A DNA stretch of 46,403 nucleotides from Rhodocyclaceae bacterium (GTDB lineage: Bacteria > Pseudomonadota > Gammaproteobacteria > Burkholderiales > Rhodocyclaceae): NCBI GenBank assembly GCA_020445665.1, contig JAGRGD010000106.1:1-46403 (forward strand). Reading direction: 5' to 3'. Positions within the stretch are counted from its first letter, which is position 1. Every line of letters begins with the position of its first letter. Shown one piece after another: positions 857 through 22,322 of this stretch. Made by a program: the position numbers and the translations under genes. Under the pieces are notes generated by a model that worked only from the letters and a program-made list of their open reading frames with translations, did not search any database and was not told the DNA's origin.

Positions 857-2017
857 ATGAAGATGGTCGTTCTGGGTGCCGGGAGGCAGGGCTGTGCGGC
901 GGCATTCGATCTCGCGAGAAGCCCTCTGGTGGAAGATGTCACCCTGGTCGACCTCGGGCTCGACGAGTTGCCAGCGTTCCTGCGTGGAGACGCCAAGGTT
1001 CGCCTGCTACGCTCCGACGTCAATGACCTGCTGCGCGCAAGAGAACTGATTGCCCCGGCGACGGTGGTCTGCAGTGCCTTGCCATACCACATGAATTTCC
1101 GCGTGGCGGAGCTGGCCCTGGAGTGCGGCACGCACTATTGCGATCTGGGCGGCAACACCGAGATTGTCAAGCAGCAGCGCGGGCTCGACGCGGCTGCGGT
1201 CGAGGCCGGGGTCAGCCTGGTTCCTGACTGCGGTCTGGCGCCCGGCCTGGTGAACATTCTGGCCGCGTCGGGTATTCGCAGTCTCGATTCCGTGGACTCG
1301 GTCAGGATTCGCGTTGGCGGTCTGCCGCAGAAGCCGCTACCGCCCTTGCACTATGGCATCGTCTATTCGCTCGAGGGCCTGCTCGACTACTACACCACCA
1401 ACTCGGTCGTGCTACGCAATGGTGTCCCGCAGTGGGTGGACGCGCTCAGTGGCCTCGAGACGTGCAAGTTTCCGGCCCCGGTTGGCGAACTGGAAGCGTT
1501 TCACACAGCTGGCGGCATCTCGAGCCTGGCCGAGCGCTACGCTGGACAGGTGCGCGAAATGGACTACAAGACCCTCAGGTTCCCGGGCCATGCGGCGATC
1601 ATGAAGGCGGTGCGCGACCTTGGCCTGCTGGGCCTGGACCCCGTCAGGGTCGGCGCGCACTCGGTGGTTCCGCGGGAGGCATTCGCGGCAATCGTGACGC
1701 CTCACCTGTCGGGCGTCAGTCTGGACTTCGTGGTTGCCCGCGTGACCGTCGCCGGCCTGCTCGACGGCAAGCCTCACGCCCTCGAGTGGGAAATGATCGA
1801 TTACTGCGACGAACAGAACGGCATCACCGCAATGATGCGCACGACCGGCTACTCGCTGGCGATCACGGCGCTGCTACAGGCCACCGGAGCGATCCCGGCC
1901 GGCGTCAGGACGCCGGACGAGGGCGTACCGGTCGATGCCTTCCTGGGAGAACTGGCCGCCCGCGGTATCGAGGTTGGCGCGAAGGCCGTTGAACTGCCGG
2001 TGCACAGCCAGGGGTGA
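857..2017 (+). CDS. lysine 6-dehydrogenase / saccharopine dehydrogenase-like oxidoreductase
   Basis: A 386-residue NAD(P)-dependent enzyme of the saccharopine dehydrogenase fold. A Rossmann motif VVLGAGRQG sits at residues 4-12. Downstream blocks PDCGLAPGLVNIL, YSLEGLLDYYT, LEAFHTAGG and DYKTLRFPGHA match those of bacterial lysine 6-dehydrogenase, as does the total length. That enzyme oxidises L-lysine at the epsilon carbon to aminoadipate semialdehyde, which cyclises to delta-1-piperideine-6-carboxylate. As first gene of the rightward NRPS operon it probably supplies a precursor (a cyclic imino acid or the semialdehyde) rather than serving lysine catabolism. No separate catabolic genes are nearby. 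The ATG at 857 has GGAGG six bases upstream, inside a possible regulatory hairpin. The exact substrate is inferred; saccharopine or a polyamine precursor is possible. Confidence 0.8.
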   Translation: MKMVVLGAGRQGCAAAFDLARSPLVEDVTLVDLGLDELPAFLRGDAKVRLLRSDVNDLLRARELIAPATVVCSALPYHMNFRVAELALECGTHYCDLGGNTEIVKQQRGLDAAAVEAGVSLVPDCGLAPGLVNILAASGIRSLDSVDSVRIRVGGLPQKPLPPLHYGIVYSLEGLLDYYTTNSVVLRNGVPQWVDALSGLETCKFPAPVGELEAFHTAGGISSLAERYAGQVREMDYKTLRFPGHAAIMKAVRDLGLLGLDPVRVGAHSVVPREAFAAIVTPHLSGVSLDFVVARVTVAGLLDGKPHALEWEMIDYCDEQNGITAMMRTTGYSLAITALLQATGAIPAGVRTPDEGVPVDAFLGELAARGIEVGAKAVELPVHSQG

Positions 2018-2149
2018 CGCCTCGGGCCGCTTCGTGCGATGTCGCGGCCGGGTGGCGGCGAGGCCGGCACCGCGCCGGGCGAACATCCACCACGTGCCGT
2101 ACGCCGTGGCGCCGTGTCGGCTGCGGCACCTGACGCAGGAGAGCCATTC

Positions 2150-4018
2150 TTGGACCCCTTCAAGCCGTGGGAGCAATTGCGCCGGGTGCTGGTTCGCGAA
2201 GACTGGACGCGGATGCTGCGGCTGTTGCTGGCAATGGTGGTGGTGATGGTGCTGCAGGTGACCGGTGTGGCGTCGATCCTGCCCTTCATGCAACTGGTGG
2301 CACAGCCCGGGGTCGTCGAGCAGAGCCACTGGATGAAGTGGATCTACGACACCGCCGGCTTCGAATCCGAGCGCCAGATGTTGCTGTGGACCGGCGCCGC
2401 GGTTTTCTGCCTGTTCACGCTCTCGGTGCTGTTGACCGCCCTGCTCAACTGGCAGATGCAGCGTTCGCTGGCGCAAACCGCGCATTGCCTGAGCATCCGC
2501 CAGTTGCAGACCTTCATGGAGCTTCCCTACGAGTACTTCGTTGCCAACAGTTCGTCGGAGCTGTTGCGGCGAACGGTCGCCGACATCAATACCCTGTTGA
2601 TCGACGTGCTGCTTGCCGGCAGCCAGATCATCGCCCAGACGCTGCTTGCGGTGGGCCTGCTGGCACTGATGTTCTTCATGCACGCCGGCGTCGCCCTTGC
2701 CGCGATCACTGTCTTCGCCGGCGCCTACTCGGCGATCCATCTGCTGCGCCACGCCTATGCCGTGCGCCTCGGCAAGATGCGCATCGATGCCGACCAGCAG
2801 CGATACGCCACCTTCGTCGATGCGATCACCGGCATGAAGTCGATTCGCGTCGCCAACGCATCGGCATATTTCGCGTCGCGCTTCGACAAGGCTTCGGAAG
2901 CCTACTCGCGCATCTACCCCCGTCTCCATCTGGTGATGGCGCTTCCCCGTCACCTGATGGAGATTCTCGCGTTCGGCGGCATTCTTCTTGCCGTGCTGAT
3001 CCTGGTCGGCGCCGGCGGCGATTTCTCGGAGGTCGTGCCGCTGCTGAGCTTCTTCGCGCTGGCGACCTACCGCTTGATGCCGGCGCTGCACACCATCTTC
3101 GATGGCGCCGGCCGCTTCAGCAGCAGTCTGCCAGTGATCGACGCCATTGCCCGCGACCTGGTGCCCCGCCCTGCGGATGCAGTCACGGGCCAGGCATCGG
3201 CGGCGCCGCGCAGCACCGCGTCGGCGGTCGATGCGCGGCCCTCGGACGCTGCCCTGAGCTTCGAGCGCGAGATCTGCCTCAACCGCGTCAGCTTCCGTTA
3301 CCGCGGCGCCGAGGCACCGACGCTGCGCGACGTCGAGTTGCGCGTCGAGAAGGGGGCGCGGGTTGCGCTCGTGGGCACCACGGGTGCCGGCAAGACGACC
3401 CTGGTGGACCTGGCCGTCGGCCTCCTGCTGCCGACCTCCGGTGCGTTGACCGTCGATGACACGCCGATCGACGCCGTCAGGCTCGCCCAGTGGCGGAAGC
3501 ACATCGCCTATGTACCGCAGGACGTCTTCCTGTTCGACGCATCGATCGCCGCCAACATTGCCTTCGGCAGCGCCGACATCGACTTCGCGCGCATGCGGAC
3601 CGCCGCGCGGATCGCCCAGATCGACGACTTCATCGTCAACGAACTCGACGGCGGCTACGACTTCCTCGTCGGCGAGCGCGGCGTACGCCTCAGTGGCGGT
3701 CAGCGCCAGCGTATCGGCATTGCCCGCGCGCTCTACCGGGACCCCGATGTCCTGCTGCTGGACGAGGCGACGAATGGTCTGGACAATGTCACCGAGGCCG
3801 CGGTCATGGCGGCGCTGCAACGCCAGGTGCCCGATCTGACCGTGATCGCCATTGCGCATCGGCTGTCGACGATCCGTTCGTTCGATCGCATCTACCTGAT
3901 CGACGGTGGGCGGGTTTCCGACCGGGGCAGCTTTGAGGATCTCTATCGTCGCAACGACCGCTTCCAGCGCATGGTCGATGCGAGCAGCGATGCCGGCACA
4001 GGGCCGGCGACCAAGTGA
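2150..4018 (+). CDS. ABC exporter, fused permease-ATPase
   Basis: A half-size type IV ABC exporter of about 622 residues (MsbA/peptide-exporter type) in the inner membrane, presumably secreting the NRPS product. The N-terminal 300 or so residues carry the hydrophobic ABC transmembrane segments. The nucleotide-binding domain follows, with Walker A GTTGAGKTT near residue 409, signature LSGGQRQRIGIARAL, Walker B DVLLLDEATNGLD and switch histidine AIAHRLST. LDEATNGLD replaces the common LDEATSALD, but the catalytic Glu is kept. I chose the TTG at 2150 because AGGAG lies eight bases upstream and the protein then starts just before the first helix. An in-frame ATG at 2039 would add 37 low-complexity residues. 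It sits between the dehydrogenase and the methyltransferase/NRPS genes of the same operon. Confidence 0.85.
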   Translation: MDPFKPWEQLRRVLVREDWTRMLRLLLAMVVVMVLQVTGVASILPFMQLVAQPGVVEQSHWMKWIYDTAGFESERQMLLWTGAAVFCLFTLSVLLTALLNWQMQRSLAQTAHCLSIRQLQTFMELPYEYFVANSSSELLRRTVADINTLLIDVLLAGSQIIAQTLLAVGLLALMFFMHAGVALAAITVFAGAYSAIHLLRHAYAVRLGKMRIDADQQRYATFVDAITGMKSIRVANASAYFASRFDKASEAYSRIYPRLHLVMALPRHLMEILAFGGILLAVLILVGAGGDFSEVVPLLSFFALATYRLMPALHTIFDGAGRFSSSLPVIDAIARDLVPRPADAVTGQASAAPRSTASAVDARPSDAALSFEREICLNRVSFRYRGAEAPTLRDVELRVEKGARVALVGTTGAGKTTLVDLAVGLLLPTSGALTVDDTPIDAVRLAQWRKHIAYVPQDVFLFDASIAANIAFGSADIDFARMRTAARIAQIDDFIVNELDGGYDFLVGERGVRLSGGQRQRIGIARALYRDPDVLLLDEATNGLDNVTEAAVMAALQRQVPDLTVIAIAHRLSTIRSFDRIYLIDGGRVSDRGSFEDLYRRNDRFQRMVDASSDAGTGPATK

Positions 4019-4067: not shown

Positions 4068-4916
4068 GTGACGGAGGGCCTGCCTCCCGCCGCGGCGCGC
4101 CACGAACCGGCCGTCTCGGGCTGGCGTACCGCCCTGGCCCGGCACTCGGAACTGCTGACCCGCCCGGCCGAGATGCTGATGCGTCTCTCGGTGCTGGTCC
4201 GCGAGGCGGTGCCCGTTGGCCTGCTCCGCCGGCACGAGATCCTTCACGCCGTCCGGCAGGCCTATCGCGGGGCGCCGGATTTCTACGACCCTGACGTCTA
4301 TCGCCTGCGCTTCGAAGCCGACCTGTTGCCGCTTCTGGAGAGGCACGCTGGCGGCAGGCGCCTGCTCGACCTGTACTGCGGTCAGGGGCGGGAGGCCGCG
4401 ATCTTCAGCGAAGCAGGCTACGAAGTGCTGGGCGTCGACGAGGACGCCAGCTCGGTCGCCAAGGCACGCGCCCACCTCGCGCGTCGCGGCTACGGCGCCG
4501 AATTCGTCGCCGCCGACGTCGATCGCTGGCAGCCGTCGGACGGCGCGTTCGATGTCGTGTACAGCTCGCTGTGGATGTATTCCTGCATTCCGGATCGGGC
4601 AGCGCGCGTCGCCTGGCTGGAGCGGGTCGCCGGGTGGATGGGGGAAGGCGGCGTGATGGTGATCTCGGTCACCCCGCGTCGCTCGCCACGCTCCGCGCGT
4701 GCCCGCCACCTCGTCGCGCGCTCGCTGTCGATGCTGACGGGGAATCGTCGCCGGCCGGAACTGGGAGACCGGTTCCATACCCGCCTGTTCTGGCATGACT
4801 TCGTCAATGCCGAGGTCGAGGCCGAACTCGCACAAGCGGGCCTGTCCGTGCGCGAGGTGCACGAAATCGGCGGCTTTACTGCCTGCACCTTCTTCATCGT
4901 GGGGCGCCATGGCTGA
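4068..4916 (+). CDS. class I SAM-dependent methyltransferase
   Basis: A 282-residue cytoplasmic methyltransferase. Motif I (LLDLYCGQGREA, from residue 99) is the SAM-binding glycine loop. It is followed by the acidic ribose-binding strand end GYEVLGVDED and by AADVDRW as motif II. The first 95 residues are a family-unspecific extension. Start at GTG 4068, with GGAG twelve bases upstream. The last 8 bases overlap the start of the NRPS gene at 4909, so translation is probably coupled. The position suggests a tailoring N-, O- or C-methylation of the peptide or a building block. The acceptor cannot be read from sequence. Confidence 0.75.
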   Translation: MTEGLPPAAARHEPAVSGWRTALARHSELLTRPAEMLMRLSVLVREAVPVGLLRRHEILHAVRQAYRGAPDFYDPDVYRLRFEADLLPLLERHAGGRRLLDLYCGQGREAAIFSEAGYEVLGVDEDASSVAKARAHLARRGYGAEFVAADVDRWQPSDGAFDVVYSSLWMYSCIPDRAARVAWLERVAGWMGEGGVMVISVTPRRSPRSARARHLVARSLSMLTGNRRRPELGDRFHTRLFWHDFVNAEVEAELAQAGLSVREVHEIGGFTACTFFIVGRHG

Positions 4917-7900
4917 CTGGCGCACCAACCTGACCCGCAGCCAGCAGCTGGTATGGCTCGGCCAGCAGCAATACCCGGCAGCGCCCCTGTACAACATGGC
5001 GCTCACGTTCGAGCTGAACGGCAACCTCGATGCGGCATGTTTCGAGCTGGCGTTCCGCGCCTGCGTGGCCGAATGCGATGCCTTGCGCTCGATCTTCGAG
5101 TCGCAGGCCGGGCAACCGCGACGCCGGGTTCTTGAGCGCGTGGAGTTCGCGTTCCCGCGGGTCGACCTGCGGCGCCAAGAAGATCCGCGTTCCGCGTGTC
5201 ACGACTGGCTGGCCGAGCGCATGCGCCAGCCATTCGACCTCGGCCGGCGCGCCTTCGATACCGCCTTGCTCCAGCTCGCCGACGATCACTTCGTGTGGTT
5301 TCTGAATCAGCACCACATCATCAGCGACGGCCGCTCGGTGGGTCTGATCTTCGACGCCATCGCGGCGCGCTACGCCGGCCTCGTCGGCCGGCCGAACGCA
5401 GCGCCGGCAGCGCCGATTGCGGCATTCGAGGACTACGCCGCCCACGAACATCGGCTCGATCAGGAAGGTCGCAACCGGCAGGAGAAAGCCTACTGGGCGG
5501 CGCGTGCCCAGGCATGGCAGTCGCGGGAAGCGCTGAGCTTCTACGGCAATCCGCCGCGGCACCCGACGACTGCCAGCGAGCGGGTTCCGGTCGTCATCGG
5601 GATCACGCGTGAGGAAAAGCTGCGGCGGCTCGCCGCCAGCGACGAGTTCGCGGCGGTGACCTCGGATGCCGCCCTGTTCCAGATCCTGCAGACCGTATTT
5701 TTCGCCTATCTGTACCGCGCCAGCGGCCAGCGATCGCTGACGGTCGGCGTGCCGAGTGCCAATCGCGCCGGCCGGAGGCACCGGAATACGATCGGACTGC
5801 TGATGCAGCTTTTCTCGCTTCAGCTGGAAGTCGAAGACGGAGAGACCTTTGCCTCGCTCCATGACAAGGTTCGAACCGAGACGCTCGAATTCCTCCGTCA
5901 CGCGGCGCCCGGCGCCTCGACCCCGGCAGCAGCGGCCGCGTTCAATGTCGTCTTCAACTACATCCCGATTGCGGGCAGCACGATTGCCGGCGTGGCGGCC
6001 CGGCAGCGTTTCCATCATGCCGGTCACGGCGAAGCGCACCATCTGCTGCGGCTCCAGGTCCAGGACTATGACGGTGCCGAACTGGAAGCCGCGCTGGACT
6101 TGAATCGCGCCGCGTTCGGCAGCGTCGACGCAGCAACGGTCGCCGGACACTTCCTCGTCATGCTCGACGCCTTTCTGGACGATCGCTCGATGCAGCTCGA
6201 TGCGGTCGACATGCTGGCGCCGCGTGAACGCCGCCTTCTGCTCGAAGAGTTCAACCGTACCGGCGCCGACTACGACGCAGCCAGCCGGCTGGAAGCGCGC
6301 TTCGAGGCCGCCGCCGCAGCCGGCCCGGAGCGTCCGGCGGTCGTCGCGGAACACGCGGCGCTCAGTTACGGCGCGCTCGATCGACGCGCGGACACCCTGG
6401 CCGCAGCCCTCACCGAGGCCGGCGTCATTGACGGGCAGATCGTCGGTCTGCAGCTCGACCGCGGCATCGACTTCGTGGTCGGCGTGCTGGCGGTGCTCAA
6501 GGCGGGCGCCGTCTTCATGCCGCTGCCGAGCGATCTGCCGCCGGCGCGCCGCAACACCATGCTCGACCTGGCCGGGGCGGAGGTCGTGATCGTTGCCGAC
6601 GCGACGCCCGCAGACGCGGTTCCGGAACGGCGCTCCGTCGTGCGCATGGGCGCAGCCGAATGCTCCGCGTGCGGGCTGCCGGAGCGCGCGCGCTCCGGTA
6701 GCAACGCAGCCGCCTACGTCCTGTTTACTTCGGGCTCGAGTGGCGAGCCCAAGGGCGTTGTGTGCAGTCACCGGGCCGTCGCCAACCTGCTCGCCGATTT
6801 CGAGCGCCGCCATCGGCTGTCGGGCAGCGCGCGGTGTTCGTGGTGGACCAGCCCTTCGTTCGACGTCTCGATCTACGAACTCTTCTCGGCGCTTGCCTTC
6901 GGACGCACGCTGTACGTCGCGCCCGAGCCGGTTCGCGCTGATGCCCGGCGCATGCTCGACTGGCTTTGCGAACAAGGCATACACAGCGCCTATCTGCCGC
7001 CCTTCATGCTGAATGATGTGCGTGAACAGATCGAACTTCGCAAGGCACGGCCGGTGCTGCGGCGCCTGCTGGTCGGCGTCGAGCCGATCGACGAGCCGTG
7101 CCTGGCTGCGATGGCCACTGCGCTGCCAGAGCTCTGCATCATCAACGGGTACGGGCCGACGGAGGCGACTGTCTGCGCGACGCTCTACCCGGTCGCCCCG
7201 GGACCGGCACCGGAACGCAATACCCCGATCGGCAGGCCAGTCGGGAACAATCGCGTCTACCTGCTCGACGACGCCCGGCGGGTGGTGCCGTTCGGCGCTG
7301 TCGGCGAGATCTACATCGGCGGAGACGGACTTTCCCTGGGCTACCTGAACCGCCCCGGTGAAACCGCCGAGCGGTTCGTGCCGAGCCCGGTCGAACAGGA
7401 TCGCGGTGCGCTGCTGTACCGCACCGGCGATCTCGCGCGCTACCTGCCCGACGGCAATCTGATGTTCGTCGGCCGTGCCGACGACCAGATCAAGTTCAGG
7501 GGTCAGCGGATCGAGCCTGGCGAGGTCGAGCGAGCCCTGGGTCAGCACCCGGACGTCCGTGAAGCGCTGGTGATGGCGAGGCCGATTGACGGTGAAACGC
7601 GGCTGGTCGCCTATCTGGCCACGGGTCACGGCGGGCGACGGTCGGCGTCCGAGTGGGCCCGGTGGCTGGCAACCCGGCTTCCGCGCGCCCTGGTTCCGAC
7701 GGTCTTCATCGAGATCGAAGCATTCCCCTTGACCGTCAGCGGCAAGATCGATCGTCGCGCGCTACCGCAGGCGCCATCCGGCGAGAGCCGGCACGCAGCG
7801 GCCGGGCGACCGGCCGGGACGACCCTCGAGAAGCAGCTCGCGGCACTGTTCGGCGATGTGCTGGAGATGACGCAGGTGGACATCGGGACCCATTTCCTCG

Positions 7901-8145
7901 ACATGGGCGGCGACTCGATCCGGGCGATGCTGATCGCCGCCAGGGCGAACGAACTGGGCCTCACGCTGGCTCCGCGCGAGATCTTCGAGCACGGAACGGT
8001 CGAGTCGCTGGCGCGCGCCATCGAAGCGCGTGGTTCGGTCCGTGAGTGCGGCGACGCCTCGCCGGCGAGCGGGTTGACCGAAGCCGAACTGCAGCAGGTG
8101 CTGACGGAGTTCGGCGAGGATCCGGACATCGACGACGCACCATGA
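4909..8145 (+). CDS. nonribosomal peptide synthetase, C-A-T module
   Basis: A one-module NRPS of 1,078 residues. The condensation domain (about 1-430) carries HHIISDG at 135-141, a complete HHxxxDG. Its N-terminal motif (LTRSQQLVWLGQQ, then PLYNMA) looks more like an L-L or starter C domain than the TPMQEG type. The adenylation domain (about 460-960) has A3 YVLFTSGSSGEPKG at 603, INGYGPTEATVC, LYRTGDLARYLPDG, and Lys in SGKIDRRAL. By manual alignment to GrsA I read the ten-residue specificity code as D-V-Y-Y-L-G-G-V-C-K, which I cannot assign to an amino acid. The carrier domain has GGDSI with Ser1003 as the phosphopantetheine site. The protein ends in a short acidic helix (LTEAELQQVL) that may be a docking element. 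I start it at ATG 4909, overlapping the methyltransferase. No epimerase domain is present. Confidence 0.92.
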   Translation: MADWRTNLTRSQQLVWLGQQQYPAAPLYNMALTFELNGNLDAACFELAFRACVAECDALRSIFESQAGQPRRRVLERVEFAFPRVDLRRQEDPRSACHDWLAERMRQPFDLGRRAFDTALLQLADDHFVWFLNQHHIISDGRSVGLIFDAIAARYAGLVGRPNAAPAAPIAAFEDYAAHEHRLDQEGRNRQEKAYWAARAQAWQSREALSFYGNPPRHPTTASERVPVVIGITREEKLRRLAASDEFAAVTSDAALFQILQTVFFAYLYRASGQRSLTVGVPSANRAGRRHRNTIGLLMQLFSLQLEVEDGETFASLHDKVRTETLEFLRHAAPGASTPAAAAAFNVVFNYIPIAGSTIAGVAARQRFHHAGHGEAHHLLRLQVQDYDGAELEAALDLNRAAFGSVDAATVAGHFLVMLDAFLDDRSMQLDAVDMLAPRERRLLLEEFNRTGADYDAASRLEARFEAAAAAGPERPAVVAEHAALSYGALDRRADTLAAALTEAGVIDGQIVGLQLDRGIDFVVGVLAVLKAGAVFMPLPSDLPPARRNTMLDLAGAEVVIVADATPADAVPERRSVVRMGAAECSACGLPERARSGSNAAAYVLFTSGSSGEPKGVVCSHRAVANLLADFERRHRLSGSARCSWWTSPSFDVSIYELFSALAFGRTLYVAPEPVRADARRMLDWLCEQGIHSAYLPPFMLNDVREQIELRKARPVLRRLLVGVEPIDEPCLAAMATALPELCIINGYGPTEATVCATLYPVAPGPAPERNTPIGRPVGNNRVYLLDDARRVVPFGAVGEIYIGGDGLSLGYLNRPGETAERFVPSPVEQDRGALLYRTGDLARYLPDGNLMFVGRADDQIKFRGQRIEPGEVERALGQHPDVREALVMARPIDGETRLVAYLATGHGGRRSASEWARWLATRLPRALVPTVFIEIEAFPLTVSGKIDRRALPQAPSGESRHAAAGRPAGTTLEKQLAALFGDVLEMTQVDIGTHFLDMGGDSIRAMLIAARANELGLTLAPREIFEHGTVESLARAIEARGSVRECGDASPASGLTEAELQQVLTEFGEDPDIDDAP

Positions 8146-10675: not shown

Positions 10676-10690
10676 CCGCCTCGCGGTCAG
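10672..10690. terminator. hairpin between convergent NRPS arms
   Basis: Perfect 8-bp arms CTGACCGC (10,672-10,679) and GCGGTCAG (10,683-10,690) flank a 3-base loop. The arms contain the TGA stop of the rightward NRPS (10,673-10,675) and, on the other strand, the TGA stop of the leftward methyltransferase (10,687-10,689). No U-tract follows on either side, so it may act as a bidirectional barrier or mRNA 3' end rather than a classical intrinsic terminator. Confidence 0.45.
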
Positions 10691-14700: not shown

Positions 14701-15069
14701 CGGCGCCCTGTCGAGTTCGACACCCTGCGCCCGTTGCGCCTCGACCACCGTGCGCCAGCGCGTCTGGGGATCACCGCTGGCGTCGCGCCAGTCTTCGAAG
14801 CGCCACGGCAGCGCGACTCGCTCGCGGACGATCTGCAAGGGCCGCTGTTCCTGGCGCCGCCACGCGAACAGCGTGCGCAGGGCGCCATGGCGCTCCACGA
14901 CCCGCTCCCACGCCTGCCGCAGAAGGTCCGGCTCGAGCGGGCCGCGCAGGGTCGCCGAGTACTGCCCAAGATAGGTCCCGGGGTCGTCGCTGCGCAGGCA
15001 GTGGTAGAGGATGCCTTCCTGCAGCGGGGTCAGCCCGAAGACCGACTCGATGTTCCGCTTGTCCGTCAT
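11752..15069 (-). CDS. nonribosomal peptide synthetase, C-A-T module
   Basis: A 1,105-residue one-module NRPS on the strand opposite the other two. The C domain starts LTPLQEGILYH, a motif common in D-C-L-type domains, and has intact HHLLFDG at 144-150. The A domain has A3 YLMYTSGSTGRPKG at 616, core ASDSSVAGIFW, FNEYGPSEACVW, LYRSGDRVRF and Lys in GGKIDRNAL. My manual specificity reading is D-S-A-C-I-A-E-V-W-K, which I do not recognise. The carrier site is GGDSL, Ser1020. About 60 Ala/Glu-rich residues follow and end in a helix (LAKLDADALKAIARQL) that resembles C-terminal docking helices. ATG at 15,069 lies 18 bases after the HupE-like gene. No epimerase or thioesterase domain is present, so its product must move to another subunit. 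Confidence 0.92.
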   Translation of the reverse strand: MTDKRNIESVFGLTPLQEGILYHCLRSDDPGTYLGQYSATLRGPLEPDLLRQAWERVVERHGALRTLFAWRRQEQRPLQIVRERVALPWRFEDWRDASGDPQTRWRTVVEAQRAQGVELDRAPLFGLLLVRTAADVHRFLFTYHHLLFDGWSLRLLLDEVGRLYAGLASGMAESLPAAGRFEGYVKWLASRDRSRDEQYWRSVLGDVTAPTDLSLPRPVADPARPARGFDAVAHRLASDALAGIDRFARQQRVTRSTLFVGAWALLLARYSDTPDVVFGTAQAGRPAELVDVDRTVGMFINTVAVRSKLPPERQVGDWLRALQQDQLAAGEHQHMSLADAQRLSALAPGQPLFETLLVHQSVPEGGAASQPWQVEDESFVEYGNYPLALLVRPGDPFVLTAVHDRARVSRSAASRLLHHFEQCLATLISSAEQPLASVDLLSDRERRQLLRDWSGADGGTASGFEALHETIARVGSRTPDAIALEQDGSSLSYRELLEQVDRLAATLCHAGMGARGIGAIFLERGPRAIAAILAVLKSGAAYVALDPAFPAARTEAVLADIAAAQRDGACALVLTDTALSERLPPHALGTVIVDRPPVGASRVPEGHTCAPDALAYLMYTSGSTGRPKGVMVSHGNLAASTAARKIHYHEPPSRFVLLSSLASDSSVAGIFWTLSAGGTLVLPRTRQEQSLAEIADIIATRRASHLLCLPSIHQLLLEDDAGQRLSGLRCVIVAGEACPRELVERHRQTLPQTALFNEYGPSEACVWSTFARLDRRVDDFDTPPIGRPICGWQVYVLGRDRRPRPAGLAGELYIGGAGVARGYLNSPQLTGERFVPSPFDERGGARLYRSGDRVRFEDNGELSFLGRVDEQIKVRGHRVEPQEIEQILLQQPGVRAAAVVLADRGQASAGGARLSAPLMAYLEGDGRTPEVAELRAALGERLPEYMVPNGFVVLASLPRAPGGKIDRNALRARDAAAAAASDYRAPRNEIERTLARIWKEALGVSRVGIDDNFFQLGGDSLLSIRVLARANRAGYEISSADFFAHPTVAGQAAAVAVPAEAADARGEPAAPEAAAEPFALAKLDADALKAIARQLKAADERGPEG

Positions 15070-15087
15070 GCCGTGCCGGCCCGTACG

Positions 15088-16392
15088 TCAGACCAGGAAG
15101 GCGAGCAGGCGCTGGGCATACTCGCCGGCGGGCAGGTCGACATCGAAGGCGCGCTCGATGAACCAGTAGCTGGCGACCAGGATCAGGCAGGAAGCCGCTC
15201 CCTGGATGCCGAAGCGCAGGTAGGTCCAGTGCGAGCGGATCAGGAACAGCAGCGGAAAGAAGACCAGCAGGATGATGATCTGGCCGAGCTCGACGCCCAG
15301 GTTGAAGCCGAGCAGGGTCAGCGGCAGGTAGTCGCCGTGGATGTTCATGTCGAGCAGGATGCCGGCGAAGCCCGCGCCGTGAAAGAGGCCGAAGGCGAAC
15401 ACCACCAGCGTGAGTCTCGAGCGAAATATCGGGACGAACACCTCGAGGGCCGCGATCGCTATCGACGCTGCGATGACCGATTCGACGATGCGACTGTCGA
15501 TGGCCAGCGTCTCGAGGGTGGTCAGGCTCAGCGTGATCGAATGGGCGACGGTGAACACGGTGACCACCTTGAGCACGTTCCAGGCGGCGCTGCGGAAGTC
15601 GGCGACCCCCCGCCAGCGGCCGTTCTCGCGCTGCACGACCGAGGTCAGCAGGAGCGCGAAGAGGAACATCACATGATCGATGCCTTCGATGATGTGATGC
15701 ATGCCGAGCAGCGCCATGCTCCACATGCCGCTCAGCAGCGTGGAGCCGGAGAGGTCGAGGCGCTGTGTCGAGGCATCTCCGGCAAAGGTCAGGGCCACGC
15801 TGGCTTCGTTTGCGAAGGTGCCTGCACGCCAGCTGTTCTCGATCAGCACCAGGCCCTGTTGCTTGGGGTCCACTTCGAACATCACGCCGTAGGCGACATC
15901 GATGTACTCCGGCGGGCCGCCGGGCAGCGCCACGGTGAACTCGCTCAGGATGTACTGCGCCAGCTTGGGGCTGCGCAGCGTCGTCGACGCCGTTTCCAGC
16001 CGTGCGGGCTCGCCGCCCGGCGCCAGTGTCACCTTGCTGCGCAGATAGTCCGCGATGCGCTCCTGGTACGGTTCCACCTGCGCCGTGGTGAGGCTGCCGT
16101 CGGTGGCCAGATCGAGACCCAGCGCGGCGTTGAGGTCACTGGCGGTGACTTCGAAGCGTGCCGTCAGCTGCGTCTCCGTGAAGCTCAGATACAGGTAGGT
16201 CTGGCCCAGCGAGTGGGCGAAGCCGCTGGCGCTCATCAACATGCCCGCCAGGATCAGCACCAGCCGTGCGGCTCGCGCCACGACGGGCGTGATCGAAAGC
16301 GACCGCAAATGCTTCAGGCATCCCGTCGCGCGCCAGCATCGAGCGTCCAAGGCGCCAGGCTGCCGGCAGCGAGAGGTGGTGAGGGTCGACAT
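15088..16392 (-). CDS. HupE/UreJ-like membrane protein with large periplasmic domain
   Basis: A 434-residue inner-membrane protein. A signal peptide (hydrophobic stretch VLILAGMLMSASGFAHS) precedes a periplasmic domain of about 180 residues starting GQTYLYLSFTE. Then come six or so membrane helices with the family motifs HHIIEGIDHVMFL and FGLFHGAGFAG. HupE/UreJ proteins are linked to nickel/cobalt handling, but many members with this layout are uncharacterised. ATG 16,392 has AAGGAG nine bases upstream. GTG 16,281 would give a more standard signal peptide but no clear ribosome site. The N-terminal coding sequence overlaps the upstream acyltransferase frame. It lies 18 bases before the NRPS at 15,069, so it is transcribed with the cluster. 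It may import or export a metal or product, or be a bystander. Confidence 0.75.
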   Translation of the reverse strand: MSTLTTSRCRQPGALDARCWRATGCLKHLRSLSITPVVARAARLVLILAGMLMSASGFAHSLGQTYLYLSFTETQLTARFEVTASDLNAALGLDLATDGSLTTAQVEPYQERIADYLRSKVTLAPGGEPARLETASTTLRSPKLAQYILSEFTVALPGGPPEYIDVAYGVMFEVDPKQQGLVLIENSWRAGTFANEASVALTFAGDASTQRLDLSGSTLLSGMWSMALLGMHHIIEGIDHVMFLFALLLTSVVQRENGRWRGVADFRSAAWNVLKVVTVFTVAHSITLSLTTLETLAIDSRIVESVIAASIAIAALEVFVPIFRSRLTLVVFAFGLFHGAGFAGILLDMNIHGDYLPLTLLGFNLGVELGQIIILLVFFPLLFLIRSHWTYLRFGIQGAASCLILVASYWFIERAFDVDLPAGEYAQRLLAFLV

Positions 16393-18141
16393 AGAGGCTC
16401 TCTCCTTGTTCGTCGAAGGCAGCACAGAGCTGGTTCCGGCAGAGCGCGTCGGTGAGGTCGAAGTATCCCACTTCGGTGTGACCCTCAGCGAACTGTCGCA
16501 GGCGCGCGTTGATCGATTTCACGTCGTCATCCAATTGTGCCGGCGCGACCGCACAATCGACGCCCGGGAAGCGCGCGGCCTTGAGCGCGCAGCGGCGGTC
16601 GACGCCATTCTGGACCGGGGCCTTGCCGATCAGAACGACATGCTTTCCCCGGCCGACCAGAGCCAGTACGGTCTCCGTGAGCCTGTCGACGAAGCCTTCA
16701 GCTGCCGCCGCATAACCCGGCCACGACGCGGCCAGCACGATGACCGCGTAGCGATCGATATGTGCGCGAACGGCCTCGATCGAGGCAATGCAGTTGGCAC
16801 GGTCGCGGTCGAAGAGGTAGGGCACAGGATCACCGAAGATCGGCGGGCAGGACTGGTTTTCGGCATTTCGGAAACGGGCGCCGGCCTGCGCCGCAAAAGC
16901 GCCCACGATGCCGACGTAGTGGGAGGCATTCGAATCGCCCCACAACAGAATCGCCGGCTCTCCCTCTCCGGGGGCCCCGACCACGCACTCCGGGTCCCGC
17001 AGGTCGGCCGGCGTGAGCCGGCCTCGCTGACAGATGTAGCGGAAGCCGTAGGCCGGGCGCTGGCGCTCCCGGGCGTTGTCCAGAGCCAGTCGATAGTCGG
17101 GCGAGAAGGCGTGCATTCCGTAGCCGCCGGTGGCCATGACGAAGGCCGAGAGGGCGCCGACCAGGGCCGCCGGCAGCAGGTAGAAGCGTGTCAGCACGAC
17201 GCCGAACGGCGCATCGCTGCGCCGGGCAGGCTGCTCGATGAAGCGCCAGCTGAGTGCCGAGAGCGCGAGAATCGCCGCCGCGGCCCACCACGCGGCGGTG
17301 GCGTCCAGCGGCCCATGGCCGTAGCGCAGGTACGCCAGGATCGGCCAGTGCCAGAGGTAGGCCGAGTATGAGAGCAGTCCGCACCATCGCAGGGGCGCGA
17401 CCGCCAGGAGACGCGAAACCGGGTTCGGGCGGATCTGGCCGGCGGCCAGAAGGGCGACCGTGCCGGCCACCGGCAGCAGGGCGGGCGACAGCGGATCCGG
17501 CCGTCGCCCGCCACTGCCAGCATGGCGCCGGCCATCAGTTCGCCGGCGCGGGTCGGCAGCATGTAGAACACGAACCGGGGCGCCGCGTCGAACAGCCACT
17601 CGGCGAGTCCGAAGGAGAGCAGCGCGCCGACCAGCAGGGCGGCCGCGACGCGCAACGCGGGGTGACGCGCCAGCAGACAGAGCAGCAGCGGCCACAGCAG
17701 GTAGAACTGCTCTTCAACGCCCAGCGACCACACGTGCAGCAAGGGCGTTTCCCGGCTGTCGGGCGCGAAATAGCCAGTGTCCTGAAACAGCCAGAAGTAG
17801 ATGTTGGCCGCGCCCGCCACGGCCGCTACCGCAGCGCGGGCAGTGAGCTGCGCGTCCTCGGGGAGCAGCAGCCATTGCGCCGCCACCACGGTGACTGCGA
17901 GGACGAACAGCAACACCGGTGCGATGCGCCGAATCCGTCGGCGATAGAACTCTTTCAGCGAGAACGAGCCAGCCCGGATACTTGCCAGCAATTGGCCGGT
18001 GATCAGGAAACCGGAGAGGACGAAGAAGATGTCGACGCCGACGAAACCGCCGCGCAGACGGGCAGGCACCATGTGATAGACGATCACCGCGAGTACCGCC
18101 ACACCGCGCAGCCCGTCGATGTCGGGCCGGTGGTGTGGCAT
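16136..18141 (-). pseudogene. AT3/SGNH acyltransferase, interrupted by a frameshift
   Basis: Two overlapping reading frames together encode one OafA/YrhL-type protein. The first (18,141 to about 17,500) has the acyltransferase-3 start RPDIDGLRGVAVLAV and VDIFFVLSGFLITG, then FYRRRIRRI and HVWSLGVEEQFYLLWP, and breaks off after AGAMLAVAGDGR. The second frame, offset by one base, resumes at PLSPALLPVAG and continues through SYSAYLWHWPILAYLRYG and RFIEQPARR. It then enters a periplasmic SGNH domain (LLWGDSNASHYVG; DPHHLS). The frame change lies near 17,490-17,505. The second frame runs to 16,136, about 250 bases into the HupE-like gene, so the natural end may be earlier. Intact proteins O-acylate glycans or secondary metabolites at the membrane. 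It is either a real pseudogene or a one-base sequencing error. The start could also be GTG 18,165; neither start has a good ribosome site. Confidence 0.75.
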
Positions 18142-18255
18142 GGCGAACGCGGGCCGGGCCGCCACGTCGTAGCGCGCTATCGGAGGGCGTCGGGAGCCGT
18201 CGCCGGGGCGCGCGGAATGCTCACGCCGTGACCGGCCCGTTTGCGCCCGGGCCGG

Positions 18256-18510
18256 TCAGACCAGCTGGTCGCCATTGCGGCGCGCGGTCACATAGGAATC
18301 GATGCGTCGAAGCGTGCTGAAATGCTCCAGTGTGACGTCCTGGGGCGGGATCTTGAATCCACAGCTTTGCTCGAGATGCGTCACCAGGCGCATGACGTCC
18401 ATCGAATCGAGCACCTGATTCATCATCAGGTCTTCGTCGGCCTCGATGGACACGGTTTCGTCGTCGAGAATCTCGACCCGGATGTACTGGCGAATGGCAT
18501 CGATGCTCAT
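18256..18510 (-). CDS. discrete peptidyl carrier protein (PltL-like)
   Basis: An 84-residue carrier protein. The phosphopantetheine site is LDSMDV with Ser36, matching NSM/DSM in the pyrrole-forming carrier proteins such as PltL. The C-terminal half (GFKIPPQDVTLEHFSTL) also follows the PltL pattern GVSIPSTHITGKYF. It should hold the aminoacyl group loaded by the ligase encoded just upstream, be oxidised by the dehydrogenase at 21,162-22,322, and present it to an NRPS condensation domain. Its ATG overlaps the ligase stop as ATGA, so the two are translationally coupled. The PPTase gene in the same arm would activate it. Confidence 0.88.
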   Translation of the reverse strand: MSIDAIRQYIRVEILDDETVSIEADEDLMMNQVLDSMDVMRLVTHLEQSCGFKIPPQDVTLEHFSTLRRIDSYVTARRNGDQLV

Positions 18511-20090
18511 GATTCGGTTCCGTGGGCGGGCTGTCCCGCGTTCGTGGCGGCCAGCTGCCGGCGATCGATCTTGCCGCTGCTGGTCCTGGGCAGATCGTCG
18601 GCGACGTCGAGGTGGCGCGGCAGCGCGTAAGCCGGGATCTTGGTCCGCGCATGGCGCATCAGCACCGCGGCGTCGGCCCGGGCGCCGTCGCAGAGGGTCA
18701 CGCAGGCATGGATCTGCTTGCTGCCGTGGGCGTCCGGCACGACAAATGCTGCGGCCTCGGATACCGCCGGATGGCTGGCCAGCGCAGCCTCGACCTCGTC
18801 CAGCTCGACCCGATGGCCACGGGTCTTGACCATGCGATCCTTGCGGCCGAGGTAGCGCAGCAGTCCATCAGGGTGGCGGACGACATAGTCGCCCGTGCGG
18901 AAGTAGATGTCGGGGAAATGCCCGTACGACGGCCTCTCGAAAAAGACCCGCTGGTTCAGATCGGGTCGCTTCCAGTAGCCTCTGGTCAGCGTCGAGCTGC
19001 GAATGCACAGCTCGCCTGCCTCGCCATCTGCGCACTCCCCGTCGTCGTCATCGAGGATCAGGTCATCGGAGTTGCAGGACACCGTTCCGATCGGGATCGG
19101 CTGGTCGTCGTCGTCGGCCAAGGGCGGGACGTCGTAACAGGTGCATGACGGCGCCTCGGCCGGACCATACACGTTGGTGAATCGGGCGTTCGGCAGCGCA
19201 GCCATAAGCGCCCGCAGGTGTTTCGGTGGATAGGGCTCGCCGCCGAAGAGGATCCAGCGCAGCGAGGACAGGTCGCGCTGCTCGATCGCGCCGCGCTGCA
19301 TCATTTCGATCAGCGTGAAGGGCACGGTGAATACGACGCTGATCCGTTCGCTCTCGATGTACTGCGTCCAGCTAGCCGGAAACTTGGTCACTTGTTCGGG
19401 CACCAGGACGACCGTCGCACCGGCCTGGGCCGTCGAGAAGAAGTCGAAGATGCTCAGGTCGAAATGCAGCGGAGCGTGACTTGCCACGCGATCCCCGGCG
19501 GTCAGGCCGACATGCGATCGTCCCCAGCGGGCGTAGGTGATGCTGCCCAGATGCGAATGCATCATTCCCTTCGGGTTCCCGGTCGAGCCGGAGGTGTACA
19601 TGATGTAGCCGAGATCCTGATCGATCAGCCATACATCCGGCGCAGACGCCGGTTCCGCGTCGATCTGCGACCACGAAACACTCGCCAGGCCGGTTTCGAC
19701 GCCGACTCCGAAGACGGTGAGCGGGCGTGTCGGCTCAAGCTGCTTCAGTGCGCCTGCCATGCCATCGGCGCTGACCAGGTGGCCGATCTCGCAATCGTCG
19801 AGAATGAAGCCGAGACGCTCGACCGGCATGAACGGGTCCAGGGGCACGAACACCCCGCCCGCCTTCAGGATGCCGTAGATCGCGACGCCGAGACTCAATG
19901 CCTTGTGCATGAAGATGCCGACCCGGCCCTGCCTCTTCAGGCCGGACGAGATCAGCGCATGGGCGAGCCGGTTGCTCGCCGCATCGAGGGCGGCATAGCT
20001 CATCTCGTGGCCCGCGAAACTCAGCGCAGCTTGCTGAGGTGTCACGCGCGCGTAGTGGGCGACGGGAGAGTGGATCAGGAAATCGGTCAT
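18507..20090 (-). CDS. stand-alone adenylation enzyme, L-prolyl-PCP ligase-like
   Basis: A 527-residue AMP-forming ligase that activates an amino acid and transfers it to a separate PCP. A3 is YIMYTSGSTGNPKG. Later motifs are NVYGPAEAPSCTCYD, YFRTGDYV, YLGRKDRMVKTRG and SSGKIDRRQL with the catalytic Lys. The stretch after YGP (SCTCY) resembles NVCTYY of PltF/RedM-type prolyl ligases. My manual code is D-L-F-F-L-G-V-S-C-K, close to the prolyl-ligase type D-L-(L/F)-Y-L-A-L-V-C-K as I remember it but not identical, so proline or a ring-size analogue such as pipecolate fits. I start at ATG 20,090; the frame continues upstream without stop into the PPTase gene on another frame. It overlaps the PCP gene by 4 bases. 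Confidence 0.85.
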   Translation of the reverse strand: MTDFLIHSPVAHYARVTPQQAALSFAGHEMSYAALDAASNRLAHALISSGLKRQGRVGIFMHKALSLGVAIYGILKAGGVFVPLDPFMPVERLGFILDDCEIGHLVSADGMAGALKQLEPTRPLTVFGVGVETGLASVSWSQIDAEPASAPDVWLIDQDLGYIMYTSGSTGNPKGMMHSHLGSITYARWGRSHVGLTAGDRVASHAPLHFDLSIFDFFSTAQAGATVVLVPEQVTKFPASWTQYIESERISVVFTVPFTLIEMMQRGAIEQRDLSSLRWILFGGEPYPPKHLRALMAALPNARFTNVYGPAEAPSCTCYDVPPLADDDDQPIPIGTVSCNSDDLILDDDDGECADGEAGELCIRSSTLTRGYWKRPDLNQRVFFERPSYGHFPDIYFRTGDYVVRHPDGLLRYLGRKDRMVKTRGHRVELDEVEAALASHPAVSEAAAFVVPDAHGSKQIHACVTLCDGARADAAVLMRHARTKIPAYALPRHLDVADDLPRTSSGKIDRRQLAATNAGQPAHGTES

Positions 20091-20230: not shown

Positions 20231-21046
20231 CTAGAGTTCGCCGCGAGGCAATCCGGGCGGGCCGGCCTCCGGCACGGGAATGGCGCCGTCGACCATGGTG
20301 TCCTCCTGGCGGGCCCGCATCCGCACCGCAAGCCGATCGCCTTCCAGCGCCACACAAGCAGCATGGTGCGGGCTGACCGCGACCATCTGCAGGGTCCATC
20401 TCGAGGGCGCAGGCGAATCGGCATCGGTGAGCGACCAGCGGCGCCTCGCCGGATCCGGCGCGACGTCGTGGCGGGCGAATGTGTCCGCGCGCGACAGGCC
20501 TTCGCCGGTCGCCTTCAGGAAAGCCTCCTTGCGCGTCCATATCCCGAAGAAGGCCCGCAGCCGGGCTGGGCCGGCATCGAGCGCTTCGAGACAGGCGCGC
20601 TCGTGCCGGCCAAAGTATCGTGTCACGATCAGGTCCATGTCCGGCAGCGGCCGGATACCTTCGATATCGACGCCCACCCGCGCCCGGTTCGCCACCGCGA
20701 TCAGCGCGCGGCCTGCGCTGTGGGCGAGATTGAACTGCAGCGCAGAGGCGTGGGCGTGGGCGTGGGCGAGGAGCGGCTTGCCCGTGTTCTCTGCAGCGAA
20801 GCGGACCTCGTGCGCGTCGATGCCGAGGTAGGCGGCCAGCGTCACCCTGAGCGACGCCCGCGAGGCGATGGCGTGGTGCCGGAGCGCTGCGCTGGCGAAC
20901 GCGTCTGCGCGACGCCGTTCGCCGGGCTCGAGCAGTGTCGCCGCAGACGCCGGGACCGCGTCGAGGTCGAACTGCCACAGATCCACCTCGCCCGCGCCCG
21001 GGAGCGCGCACCGGTGCGGCCGCCATTGCGCGTCAGATGCAGTCAC
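20231..21046 (-). CDS. Sfp-type 4'-phosphopantetheinyl transferase
   Basis: A 271-residue enzyme that moves phosphopantetheine from CoA to the Ser of carrier domains. Family motifs are in order: NTGKPLL, LQFNLAHSAG, VGVDIEGI with the Mg-binding acidic residues, and FFGIWTRKEAFLKATGEGL. Total length exceeds Sfp (224 aa) because of a C-terminal tail of about 30 Pro/Gly-rich residues. Start at GTG 21,046 with GGAG seven bases upstream. It lies between the dehydrogenase and ligase genes and most likely activates the discrete PCP and the three NRPS carrier domains. Its presence argues that the locus is self-sufficient. Confidence 0.93.
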   Translation of the reverse strand: MTASDAQWRPHRCALPGAGEVDLWQFDLDAVPASAATLLEPGERRRADAFASAALRHHAIASRASLRVTLAAYLGIDAHEVRFAAENTGKPLLAHAHAHASALQFNLAHSAGRALIAVANRARVGVDIEGIRPLPDMDLIVTRYFGRHERACLEALDAGPARLRAFFGIWTRKEAFLKATGEGLSRADTFARHDVAPDPARRRWSLTDADSPAPSRWTLQMVAVSPHHAACVALEGDRLAVRMRARQEDTMVDGAIPVPEAGPPGLPRGEL

Positions 21047-21161
21047 GTTCGATCTCCGACGATTTGATCCTCCCTCGGTCGAGACGGCCTTTTCGCCGAT
21101 GCGGCGGGCTCATGGCGGAGAGCGGCCCACGCTTTCCGGGTCGACCGTGGGAGGCCGAATT

Positions 21162-22322
21162 TCAGTTCCTGGTCTTCAGCCCGAGATTGCGGGCGATGAT
21201 CAGCCGCTGGATCTCCGATGTCCCCGAATACAGCTTGCCCCCGATGGCGTCCCGCAACTCGCGCTCGGCGCCGTATTCCGTCATGTAGCCATAGCCTCCA
21301 CGCACCTGGATCGCATCCATCGCCGACTGCACGGCGGCTTCGCTGATGTAGAGCTTGGCCAGCGCGCCGTCCATCGCGCTCATGCCACCCTGCCGCGCCT
21401 GGCTCCAGGCGCTTCGATACAGCAGCAGGCGGGAGGTCTCCAGGCGGAGCTTCATGTCCACGATGCGCGAGGCGACCAACTGGTAGCTTCCGACAGGCTT
21501 GCCGAACTGATGGCGCTGCTTCGCGTATTCGATGCTTGCCTCGAGCTGGCGCTGCATGGCGCCGACGTCGCTGGCAAGGATGCAGCTGCGTTCCCAACCC
21601 ATGGCGTGATTGAAGATCATCGCGCCCGTGCCTTCCCCGCCCAGCAGATTGGCCGCCGGTACATGGCAATTGTCGAGGTACACCTCCGACATGGGCGAGG
21701 TGGTCAGTCCCATCTTGGCGATCGGCTTGCCCACCGAGAGCCCTTCCGTGTCGCGCTCGACCAGAAAGGCGCTGACGCCCCACATGCCACGCTCGCGATC
21801 GGCCGTGGCGAAGATCAGGAACAGATCCGCTTCGGGCGCGTTGGTGACGAACATCTTGCTGCCGTTGAGCACGTAGTGCTCGCCCTGGCGGAGTGCCCGG
21901 GTTCGCATGGAGAAGGCGTCCGACCCCGAATCCGGCTCGCTCATCGCATGGGCGCCGAGCAGGCTGCCATCGCACAGGCCAGGCAGGTAGCGGCGCTTCT
22001 GCTCGTCGGTGCCGAAGGCGAGGATCGGCATCTCGACGGTCCAGATGTGCGCATGGAGCGAGAACAGCAGCCCCCGGTCGGGGCAACCATAACCCAGTGC
22101 CTCCATGACCAGCATCGCGGTCAGAGCGTCCTCATCCGATCCGCCGTACTGCTCCGGCATCGGGAGGCCCTGAATACCGAAGTCGGCACATTTTCGCCAC
22201 AGTTCACGCGCGAAAGCGCCCGTCTTCTCCCGCTCCCCGGGATCCTCGCCGAGGTGCTTGAGCGCGAACTGCCTTGCTGCCTCGCACATCTCGAGCTGCT
22301 CGGTACTCCAGGAAAAGTCCAT
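21162..22322 (-). CDS. acyl-CoA dehydrogenase family, L-prolyl-PCP dehydrogenase-like
   Basis: A 386-residue flavoenzyme with the complete acyl-CoA dehydrogenase fold. It has GAHAMSEPDSGSD, YVLNGSKMFVTNAPEADLF, the KMGLTTSPMSEVYLD block, and C-terminal GGYGYMTEYGAEREL and SGTSEIQR. The medium-chain catalytic Glu position (YEGT) is Ser here (LYSGT). The isovaleryl-CoA dehydrogenase-type Glu is present instead as GWER, Glu244. This arrangement and the HAMSEPDSGSDAFS block fit the PltE/RedW/CloN3 class that oxidises prolyl-S-PCP to pyrrolyl-2-carboxyl-S-PCP. It is the first gene of the leftward arm, with ligase and PCP downstream. ATG 22,322 is preceded by GAGG. A role in ordinary fatty-acid oxidation is unlikely, as no beta-oxidation genes are nearby. 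Confidence 0.85.
   Translation of the reverse strand: MDFSWSTEQLEMCEAARQFALKHLGEDPGEREKTGAFARELWRKCADFGIQGLPMPEQYGGSDEDALTAMLVMEALGYGCPDRGLLFSLHAHIWTVEMPILAFGTDEQKRRYLPGLCDGSLLGAHAMSEPDSGSDAFSMRTRALRQGEHYVLNGSKMFVTNAPEADLFLIFATADRERGMWGVSAFLVERDTEGLSVGKPIAKMGLTTSPMSEVYLDNCHVPAANLLGGEGTGAMIFNHAMGWERSCILASDVGAMQRQLEASIEYAKQRHQFGKPVGSYQLVASRIVDMKLRLETSRLLLYRSAWSQARQGGMSAMDGALAKLYISEAAVQSAMDAIQVRGGYGYMTEYGAERELRDAIGGKLYSGTSEIQRLIIARNLGLKTRN

Follow-up and report, generated by a model that had tools for sequence, protein, structure and literature searches.

Here, we analyse a nonribosomal peptide synthetase (NRPS) locus at positions 857–22322 of a 46,403-nt window of Rhodocyclaceae DNA, which is one whole contig (JAGRGD010000106.1) of a 4.79-Mb draft genome. 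Judged by its proteins, the locus is not an orphan; it belongs to a family of NRPS clusters associated with a HupE/UreJ_2-family membrane protein (hereafter HupE), and this family has at least three divergent members. The reading that we favor, and consider reasonably probable, is that the locus specifies a split NRPS line for a short peptide. A proline-like starter would be oxidised on a free peptidyl carrier protein (PCP), methionine and histidine would follow, and a protein of condensation (C), thiolation (T) and thioesterase (TE) domains would finish the chain, which would be methylated and exported. From the parts, their family, the identity of the adenylation (A) codes and the gene order of a related cluster, we infer the substrates, order of action, loading in trans, methylation and export.

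A family of HupE-associated NRPS loci

The locus encodes three NRPS proteins (C-A-T1, C-A-T2 and C-T-TE, named for their domains), two methyltransferases (MT1 and MT2), a free PCP, a free A enzyme and an aminoacyl-PCP dehydrogenase of the acyl-CoA dehydrogenase (ACAD) fold, among other proteins (Table 1). The preliminary description of this DNA had proposed a synteny search as a check. Comparison with other DNA uncovers a homologous cluster in another genome of the same genus, G001, and HupE-PCP-ACAD-A cassettes beside NRPS genes on two Rhodobacterales plasmids. In G001 (contig C147), genes for HupE, ACAD, free A, PCP, NRPS1, NRPS2 and NRPS3 lie in this order on one strand, with a 4′-phosphopantetheinyl transferase (PPTase) gene nearby on the other. 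Identity between window and G001 is 50% for HupE, 56% for ACAD, 47% for the free A and about 40% for PCP.

The plasmids, of Roseovarius pelagicus (NZ_CP106737.1) and Pseudohalocynthiibacter (NZ_CP049039.1), emerged from a search of six window proteins against 72,556 plasmid records. With HupE, MT2 (10 records matched) or the free A as query they take the top two ranks, and with ACAD they are fifth and sixth. Both carry genes for HupE, PCP, ACAD, a methyltransferase and a free A side by side; because the latter four share protein accessions, we count the two plasmids as one locus. A 2682-residue NRPS (C-A-T-C-A-T-TE) adjoins HupE in the opposite direction in Roseovarius, and NRPS-like frames beside the Pseudohalocynthiibacter cassette, which are unannotated, were found by tblastn. 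MT2 has a full-length homologue in this cassette (36% identity). HupE, a free PCP, ACAD and a free A with F278 and G301 stand together in three of three distinct loci, although these loci also define the family and so provide no independent test.

HupE itself is present in all three loci, the Roseovarius protein being 36% identical to that of the window, and residues H44, H217, D223, H224, H268 and H322 are invariant across the three proteins. The HupE family is wider than NRPS cassettes: in the five that were examined of 20 other HupE-matching plasmid records, no PCP, A or ACAD lies within 8–12 kb.

Module order and building blocks

The order of the modules had been described as unreadable. 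This holds for the window taken by itself; comparison with G001 and Roseovarius weakens it. In a tree of C domains, C-A-T1 forms one group with G001 NRPS1 and the first Roseovarius C domain (support 1.000), C-A-T2 pairs with G001 NRPS2 (0.947), and C-T-TE stands beside those two (0.967). The G001 PCP gene directly precedes NRPS1, whose C domain is the one that groups with that of C-A-T1. Based on G001 gene order and these groupings, the most likely order is free PCP, C-A-T1, C-A-T2, C-T-TE. The idea that the free PCP supplies the starter also gains from the position of the G001 PCP gene, and the free PCP is the only starter carrier visible in the window.

Specificity codes were taken from columns of an alignment to the GrsA region. 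The last letter (position 331) was read by hand after YGPxE for C-A-T2, G001 NRPS1–3 and both Roseovarius A domains, owing to a gap shift; that of C-A-T1 is A in one alignment and C in the other, and C is used here. The code DSALIAEVW occurs at the second extension module of all three distinct loci (C-A-T2, G001 NRPS2 and Roseovarius A2, with the hand-read last letter). Codes could be read for 44 A domains across the loci compared, and the others match it at no more than four of nine positions. In a survey of 2051 A domains, DSALIAEVWK is given as a histidine signature (PMC12283262), and we predict that C-A-T2 activates histidine. The code of C-A-T1 differs by one letter from DVFYLGGVC; the same survey has DVFYLGGVCK incorporating methionine, listed within a passage on Ala-type codes. 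C-A-T1 therefore likely activates Met, with Ala as the alternative. The code of G001 NRPS1, DLTKIGEVG, appears in that source among Asp/Asn codes and is described there as compatible with beta-cyano-alanine, and that of NRPS3, DAWFLGHVV, differs by a single letter from DAWFLGNVV, a Leu code. The predicted backbones are thus starter-Met-His(-X) for the window, starter-Asn-His-Leu for G001 and starter-Asn-His for Roseovarius.

Several features of the related NRPSs deserve mention in their own right. The A domain of G001 module 2 appears to be split across two NRPS proteins. Between NRPS2 and NRPS3 lies a gene for a guanidinoacetate-N-methyltransferase-like protein (L129 9678–10463, minus strand; E = 4e-24 to a PDB enzyme), which had raised arginine as a substrate for C-A-T2; this assignment was replaced by the published His code. 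Over 1589 aligned residues, G001 NRPS1 and the Roseovarius NRPS are 36% identical, and inside the Asn-type A domain of each is a WbuX-like (TIGR03573) insert (L129 15236–16243, 118 bits, and L090 24125–25093, 100 bits, respectively; cut-off 203). We know of no prior example of an N-acetyl sugar amidotransferase-like insert in an A domain, and the amidotransferase term is absent from the open-access papers that a literature search listed.

We propose the following path. The PPTase would arm the carrier domains, and the free A would load a proline-like cyclic amino acid onto the free PCP, where the dehydrogenase would oxidise the bound ring. C-A-T1, probably carrying Met, would take over the oxidised starter, and C-A-T2 would add histidine. 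C-T-TE, with its T domain loaded in trans, would finish the chain; a methyltransferase would decorate it, and the ABC protein would export the product. Such a mode of action would resemble that of other trans-started NRPS lines.

The starter set

In the PDB, the dehydrogenase matches 4irn best (Table 1), then 5zw0 (340 bits) and 6cxt (327 bits), and its score to the NCBIfam PigA model falls under the cut-off of 500. Glu244 is identified as the catalytic Glu by motif alignment. We take 4irn, labelled prolyl-ACP dehydrogenase in the PDB, to be AnaB, a pyrroline former, and 5zw0 to be PigA. Unlike this presumed role, one paper links AnaB to pyrrole formation; there, 6cxt is identified as Bmp3 (PMC11177257). 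No sequence feature was found that distinguishes enzymes forming pyrroline from those forming pyrrole.

The free A enzymes of the family form a clade with support 1.000, and its sister (0.944) is an S. clavuligerus enzyme with prolyl code. Their codes are DLFFLGVSC in the window, DLFFVGMGV in G001 and DIFFIGSMC in Roseovarius, all with F278 and G301. The canonical prolyl code DL[FL]YLALVC is found in 13 of 15 other cassettes: five of seven in one set, a count that assumes that each A serves the nearby dehydrogenase and leaves out Mycetohabitans, where the annotation divides A in two, and Pseudoalteromonas, whose stretch contains no A, and eight of eight in the other. The two non-canonical codes are DLLQVTLDS in S. 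xanthii and DLFFLCLVC in Streptomyces NBC_00557; since the latter has F278, this residue alone is not exclusive to the family. Hence, of the features of a prolyl-to-pyrrole cassette, the window has the free carrier and an ACAD with its Glu and lacks the canonical prolyl A code, and for this reason we do not file the locus as such a cassette. The earlier label of a pyrrole-type starter accordingly suits the dehydrogenase and not the free A. A proline-like ring is likely oxidised on the PCP; pyrrole-2-carboxyl is a possible product, and another ring is a further option.

The F278/G301 pair resembles the pipecolate code that we associate with FkbP. A pipecolate starter made via the lysine-dehydrogenase-like gene was considered and not ranked, as that gene is unmatched in G001 and none is annotated in Roseovarius.

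Prolyl PCP-A-ACAD triads elsewhere

A search of 281 genomes of the bacterial family with a profile built from the three variant A enzymes gave 11 matches at 1e-105 or better. The window genome and G001, both represented in the profile, score about 990 bits, and the nine others 389–464 bits. Eight of these nine were examined (G1576 was left out), and each of the eight is a PCP-A-ACAD triad whose A has the canonical prolyl code, which disposes of exosortase-associated ligases as their identity. In six of six 20-kb stretches, and also in a Microvirga plasmid, the triad lies beside a gene for a multi-pass membrane protein of about 845 residues. In L142 and L030, the C-terminal part of this protein matches GDSL weakly, with scores under the Pfam cut-off; an MBOAT label for its N-terminal part, assigned by eye, is unsupported by Pfam (E up to 5) and by PDB profile search. 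A C-T-TE query found no C domain in the six stretches, although a further AMP-binding enzyme is present in two of them (L142 and L144), and no HupE was found in the six. The triads resemble the Dlt layout of ligase, carrier and membrane acyltransferase, and by analogy may place pyrrole-2-carboxyl on a surface glycan.

The C-T-TE protein

C-T-TE has the C motif HHLILDL and the T-domain Ser, and no A domain; its positional counterpart, G001 NRPS3, keeps its own. Because the C domain of C-T-TE is close to the C-A-T2 type, its T domain is most likely loaded in trans by the A domain of C-A-T2. The TE nucleophile is Cys630 in GVCFG, where Ser is usual. In the alignment, Asp657 matches the AB3403 Asp, and Asp790 occupies the site of the AB3403 His (GAD versus GDH). 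Read by eye, the corresponding residues are Cys and His in Roseovarius and Ser and His in G001. The window TE may be impaired or unusual. The missing A domain and the replaced TE His give the third NRPS protein unusual or degenerate features.

Another A-less C-T-TE is found in Sulfitobacter sabulilitoris (L029 9980–12487; 23% identity), also with Cys as TE nucleophile. Its gene sits within a set of polysaccharide export genes, next to that of a large protein whose parts look, by eye, polyketide synthase-, aminotransferase- and NRPS-like.

Alternative explanations

Several observations weigh against the split-line reading. Product and activity are predictions, and the best homologues are just about 30–57% identical. 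In the A-domain tree, C-A-T1 falls with G001 NRPS3 and not NRPS1, which means that module 1 is no simple orthologue; the second Roseovarius C domain groups weakly with G001 NRPS3 (0.757) and not with C-A-T2; and the terminal domain of G001 NRPS1 is of the C family, by eye an epimerization (E) domain, for which C-A-T1 has no equivalent. With the usual TE His replaced and no A domain in C-T-TE, the final step could be inactive. The two cassette plasmids are absent among the matches listed for the lysine-dehydrogenase-like protein (best 25 of 108) and for C-A-T2 (best 15 of 2,392). Finally, among matches listed in sampled genomes, where HupE was not searched, none to MT2 spans both halves of the protein, the window's own genome excepted. 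These genome surveys, with about five candidates scored per genome and no cassette-bearing control, are weak evidence of absence. They matched MT2 in 199 of 369 genomes of the class; an MT2 alignment matched 11 of 398 genomes of the phylum (1e-12), 85 of 399 of the order and 0 of 385 of another class of the phylum (1e-28). Nearly all listed matches fall in the methyltransferase domain, and one is a weak N-terminal match (G264, 24.7 bits).

An ordinary pyrrole starter is nested within the favored explanation. Here the free A would activate L-proline and the dehydrogenase would make pyrrole-2-carboxyl-PCP, as in prodigiosin and pyoluteorin synthesis. The dehydrogenase has its closest homologues beside A enzymes with the canonical prolyl code (57% identity in Microvirga, 55% in S. 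clavuligerus), its Glu244 is in place, it scores 464.8 bits against the PigA model, and a prolyl-code enzyme is the sister of the free A clade; on the other hand, F278/G301 replace the Y278/A301 that 13 of the 15 other cassettes keep, the PigA cut-off is not reached, and the best PDB match is to a presumed pyrroline former. We regard this starter as a serious but tentative option. A locus in decay that yields no finished product would explain the lack of an A domain in C-T-TE, the change of TE His to Asp and the occurrence of the AT3-SGNH acyltransferase in two frames, all the more as G001 NRPS3 retains its A domain and the TE Ser and His. This is unlikely in our estimation, given that the eleven other genes have open frames and fit their families, no stops interrupt the roughly 9 kb of NRPS genes, a single break of frame may reflect faulty assembly of a draft contig, and the Roseovarius TE also has Cys. 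It is also conceivable that the PCP-A-ACAD cassette serves the AT3-SGNH membrane acyltransferase, which would transfer the oxidised acyl group onto a surface glycan, rather than the NRPS. AT3-SGNH does come directly after PCP, the Microvirga and six same-family triads adjoin the large membrane protein with no C domain found, and polysaccharide genes occur in the Microvirga, Roseovarius and Sulfitobacter comparison loci. Nevertheless, AT3-SGNH is split over two frames in the window, was not found in the G001 stretch and is not annotated in the Roseovarius stretch, NRPS genes adjoin the Roseovarius cassette, and the triads differ in A code and, in the six stretches, have no HupE. We hold this last alternative to be very improbable.

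Possible metal binding

Peptides with an X-X-His N-terminus have the amino-terminal Cu(II)- and Ni(II)-binding (ATCUN) form, in which the metal is held square-planar. With His in third place, the predicted peptides match this form, and we take the HupE/UreJ family to be nickel-linked. By analogy, the three loci might represent a new family of metallophore assembly lines, whose starter-X-His peptide would bind Cu(II) or Ni(II) in ATCUN-like fashion through the ring nitrogen at its N-terminus, two backbone amides and the imidazole, with HupE moving the metal or the complex. We consider this a speculative idea and rather improbable. If true, it would open a route to nickel or copper chelators of a kind that searches aimed at classical siderophores could overlook. 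In the genus of the window and in Rhodobacterales, the loci bring together a starter cassette built on a free PCP and an unexplained membrane protein family, HupE/UreJ_2, and yields testable building blocks, namely His in the second extension module and Met or Asn in the first.

Locus organization and genomic setting

All enzymes named in the preliminary description are found in their places by Pfam, NCBIfam and PDB matches, in two convergent operons in which neighbouring genes lie at most 140 bases apart (Table 1). Pfam scores reach 274 bits, far beyond chance. Each of the three NRPS proteins is a single module that begins with a C domain, as described; together they carry HHxxxD, SGS[TS]G and GG[DT]S motifs and Pfam C, A and T domains, and so classify as NRPS. 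The inventory had overlooked HupE and the split AT3-SGNH. As for the combination of genes, the parts exist, and no described pathway with this set was found in open-access literature, in line with the earlier claim; the set is not, though, conserved as a whole. In the 50 kb of G001 read (L128–L130), there is no homologue of the lysine-dehydrogenase-like protein, exporter, MT1, MT2 or AT3-SGNH.

Table 1. Features of the window and PCP-A-ACAD triads of other genomes
Feature	Position	Strand	Evidence
Saccharopine/lysine-dehydrogenase-like enzyme	857–2017	+	Pfam Sacchrp_dh_C 125.9 bits, Sacchrp_dh_NADP 47.4 bits
ABC exporter (transmembrane + ATPase), PglK/MsbA-like	2039–4018	+	Pfam ABC_tran 104.7 bits; NCBIfam PglK 284 and MsbA 279 bits, both under cut-off
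MT1, class I S-adenosylmethionine-dependent	4068–4916	+	Pfam Methyltransf_25 50.3 bits
NRPS C-A-T1	4909–8145	+	Pfam C, A, T; code DVYYLGGVC
NRPS C-T-TE, without A domain	8189–10675	+	Pfam; alignment to AB3403 (4zxh)
MT2, with N-terminal extension	10687–11742	-	Pfam Methyltransf_25 37.4 bits
NRPS C-A-T2	11752–15069	-	Pfam C, A, T; code DSALIAEVW
HupE/UreJ_2-family membrane protein	15088–16344	-	PF13795 135 bits; start uncertain, open reading frame opens at 16425
SGNH half of AT3-SGNH acyltransferase	16136–17695	-	Pfam SGNH 137.1 bits
AT3 half of AT3-SGNH acyltransferase	17191–18165	-	Pfam Acyl_transf_3 84.3 bits, profile 3–200
Free PCP, Ser in LDSMD	18256–18510	-	Pfam PP-binding 31.8 bits (cut-off 20.8)
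Free A enzyme, code DLFFLGVSC	18507–20090	-	Pfam AMP-binding 274 bits
PPTase	20231–21046	-	Pfam ACPS 62.4 bits; NCBIfam HetI 136.5 bits (below cut-off 370)
Aminoacyl-PCP dehydrogenase (ACAD fold), AnaB/PigA/Bmp3 type, Glu244	21162–22322	-	PDB 4irn 442 bits; NCBIfam PigA 464.8 bits
tRNA-Arg(ccg), between conserved flank and variable region	22860–22936	-	ARAGORN
Triads in G005, G014, G029, G1539, G1554, G1589, G1594, G1645	L142–L147, L134–L141		canonical prolyl code 8/8
Microvirga plasmid triad	L030 9877–16152		canonical prolyl code

The best PDB sequence for the lysine-dehydrogenase-like protein is PH1688 (3abi, 102 bits), which we take to be a lysine dehydrogenase, and no NCBIfam model matches it; given the lack of a homologue in the G001 stretch, this enzyme is perhaps accessory. 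The AT3 and SGNH halves, adjoining the free PCP gene, sit in different, overlapping frames, which implies either that the gene is broken here or that the contig has an indel error.

DNA common to the window and the congeners G002, G003 and G005 ends at 22821, beside the tRNA-Arg, which places the locus in a variable region; its second border lies outside the view, as the window is the entire contig. No 16S gene was found in the genome of the window. The pairing of this tRNA-Arg with its neighbouring helicase gene recurs in G002–G005 (four of five loci scanned) and not in G014. There are no exact repeats of at least 13 bases of the border sequence in 1–22700, and no Rfam RNAs in 1–23000. Beside the G001 cluster, a phage-type integrase gene (L130 10935–12113; C147 277935–279113) is seen, with two tRNA-Val near the contig end; possibly this cluster is within an island.

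C-T-TE had matches in 26 of 121 genomes, among them G001 at 35% identity and also G092, G103, G110 and G079. A peptide-pattern scan for C-T-TE over 84,980 species (six 8-residue patterns, 41 stretches), sensitive to close relatives only, gave one distant match, the Sulfitobacter protein described above.

Comparison with known systems

Thiotemplated pyrrole cassettes include PltF/PltL/PltE, PigI/PigG/PigA, Bmp and ChmJ/I/H. Like the window, these comprise a free A, a free PCP and an ACAD-fold dehydrogenase with catalytic Glu, whereas the window free A departs from DLFYLALVC at four of nine positions. For the last step, the TEs of ObiF (beta-lactone) and SulM (monobactam) offer a parallel in their Cys nucleophile (PMC6668435, PMC11298585), which the window TE has in common. 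Their Asp is at another position (II), whereas that of the window TE is at the AB3403 position (I) and its His is replaced; of the traits of beta-lactone/beta-lactam Cys-TEs, the window thus has the Cys and lacks the position-II Asp and the intact His. CmnI, of capreomycin synthesis, is a module without its own A domain, served by CmnA-A1 (PMC12400406), and is A-less in the same way as C-T-TE. The available part of that paper describes CmnI with T and C domains and makes no mention of a TE; its loading enzyme is known, whereas that of C-T-TE is predicted.

The closest parallels are the other members of the family. G001 differs from the window in its Asn-type first module, with the WbuX-like insert and the putative E domain, in a third module with its own A, in its guanidinoacetate-methyltransferase-like protein, and in that homologues of MT1, MT2, the exporter, the lysine-dehydrogenase-like protein and AT3-SGNH were not found there. 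Common to both are a first C domain of the same clade, the second-module His code and a terminal TE. Roseovarius has a single NRPS, whose first module is Asn-type and carries a WbuX-like insert in its A domain (A1), in a setting of polysaccharide genes, and no lysine-dehydrogenase-like gene is annotated in the 48 kb read, all unlike the window. Yet in Roseovarius and Pseudohalocynthiibacter, HupE, PCP, ACAD, the MT2 homologue and the variant free A lie next to NRPS genes as they do in the window, and Roseovarius further shares its second-module His code and its Cys TE.

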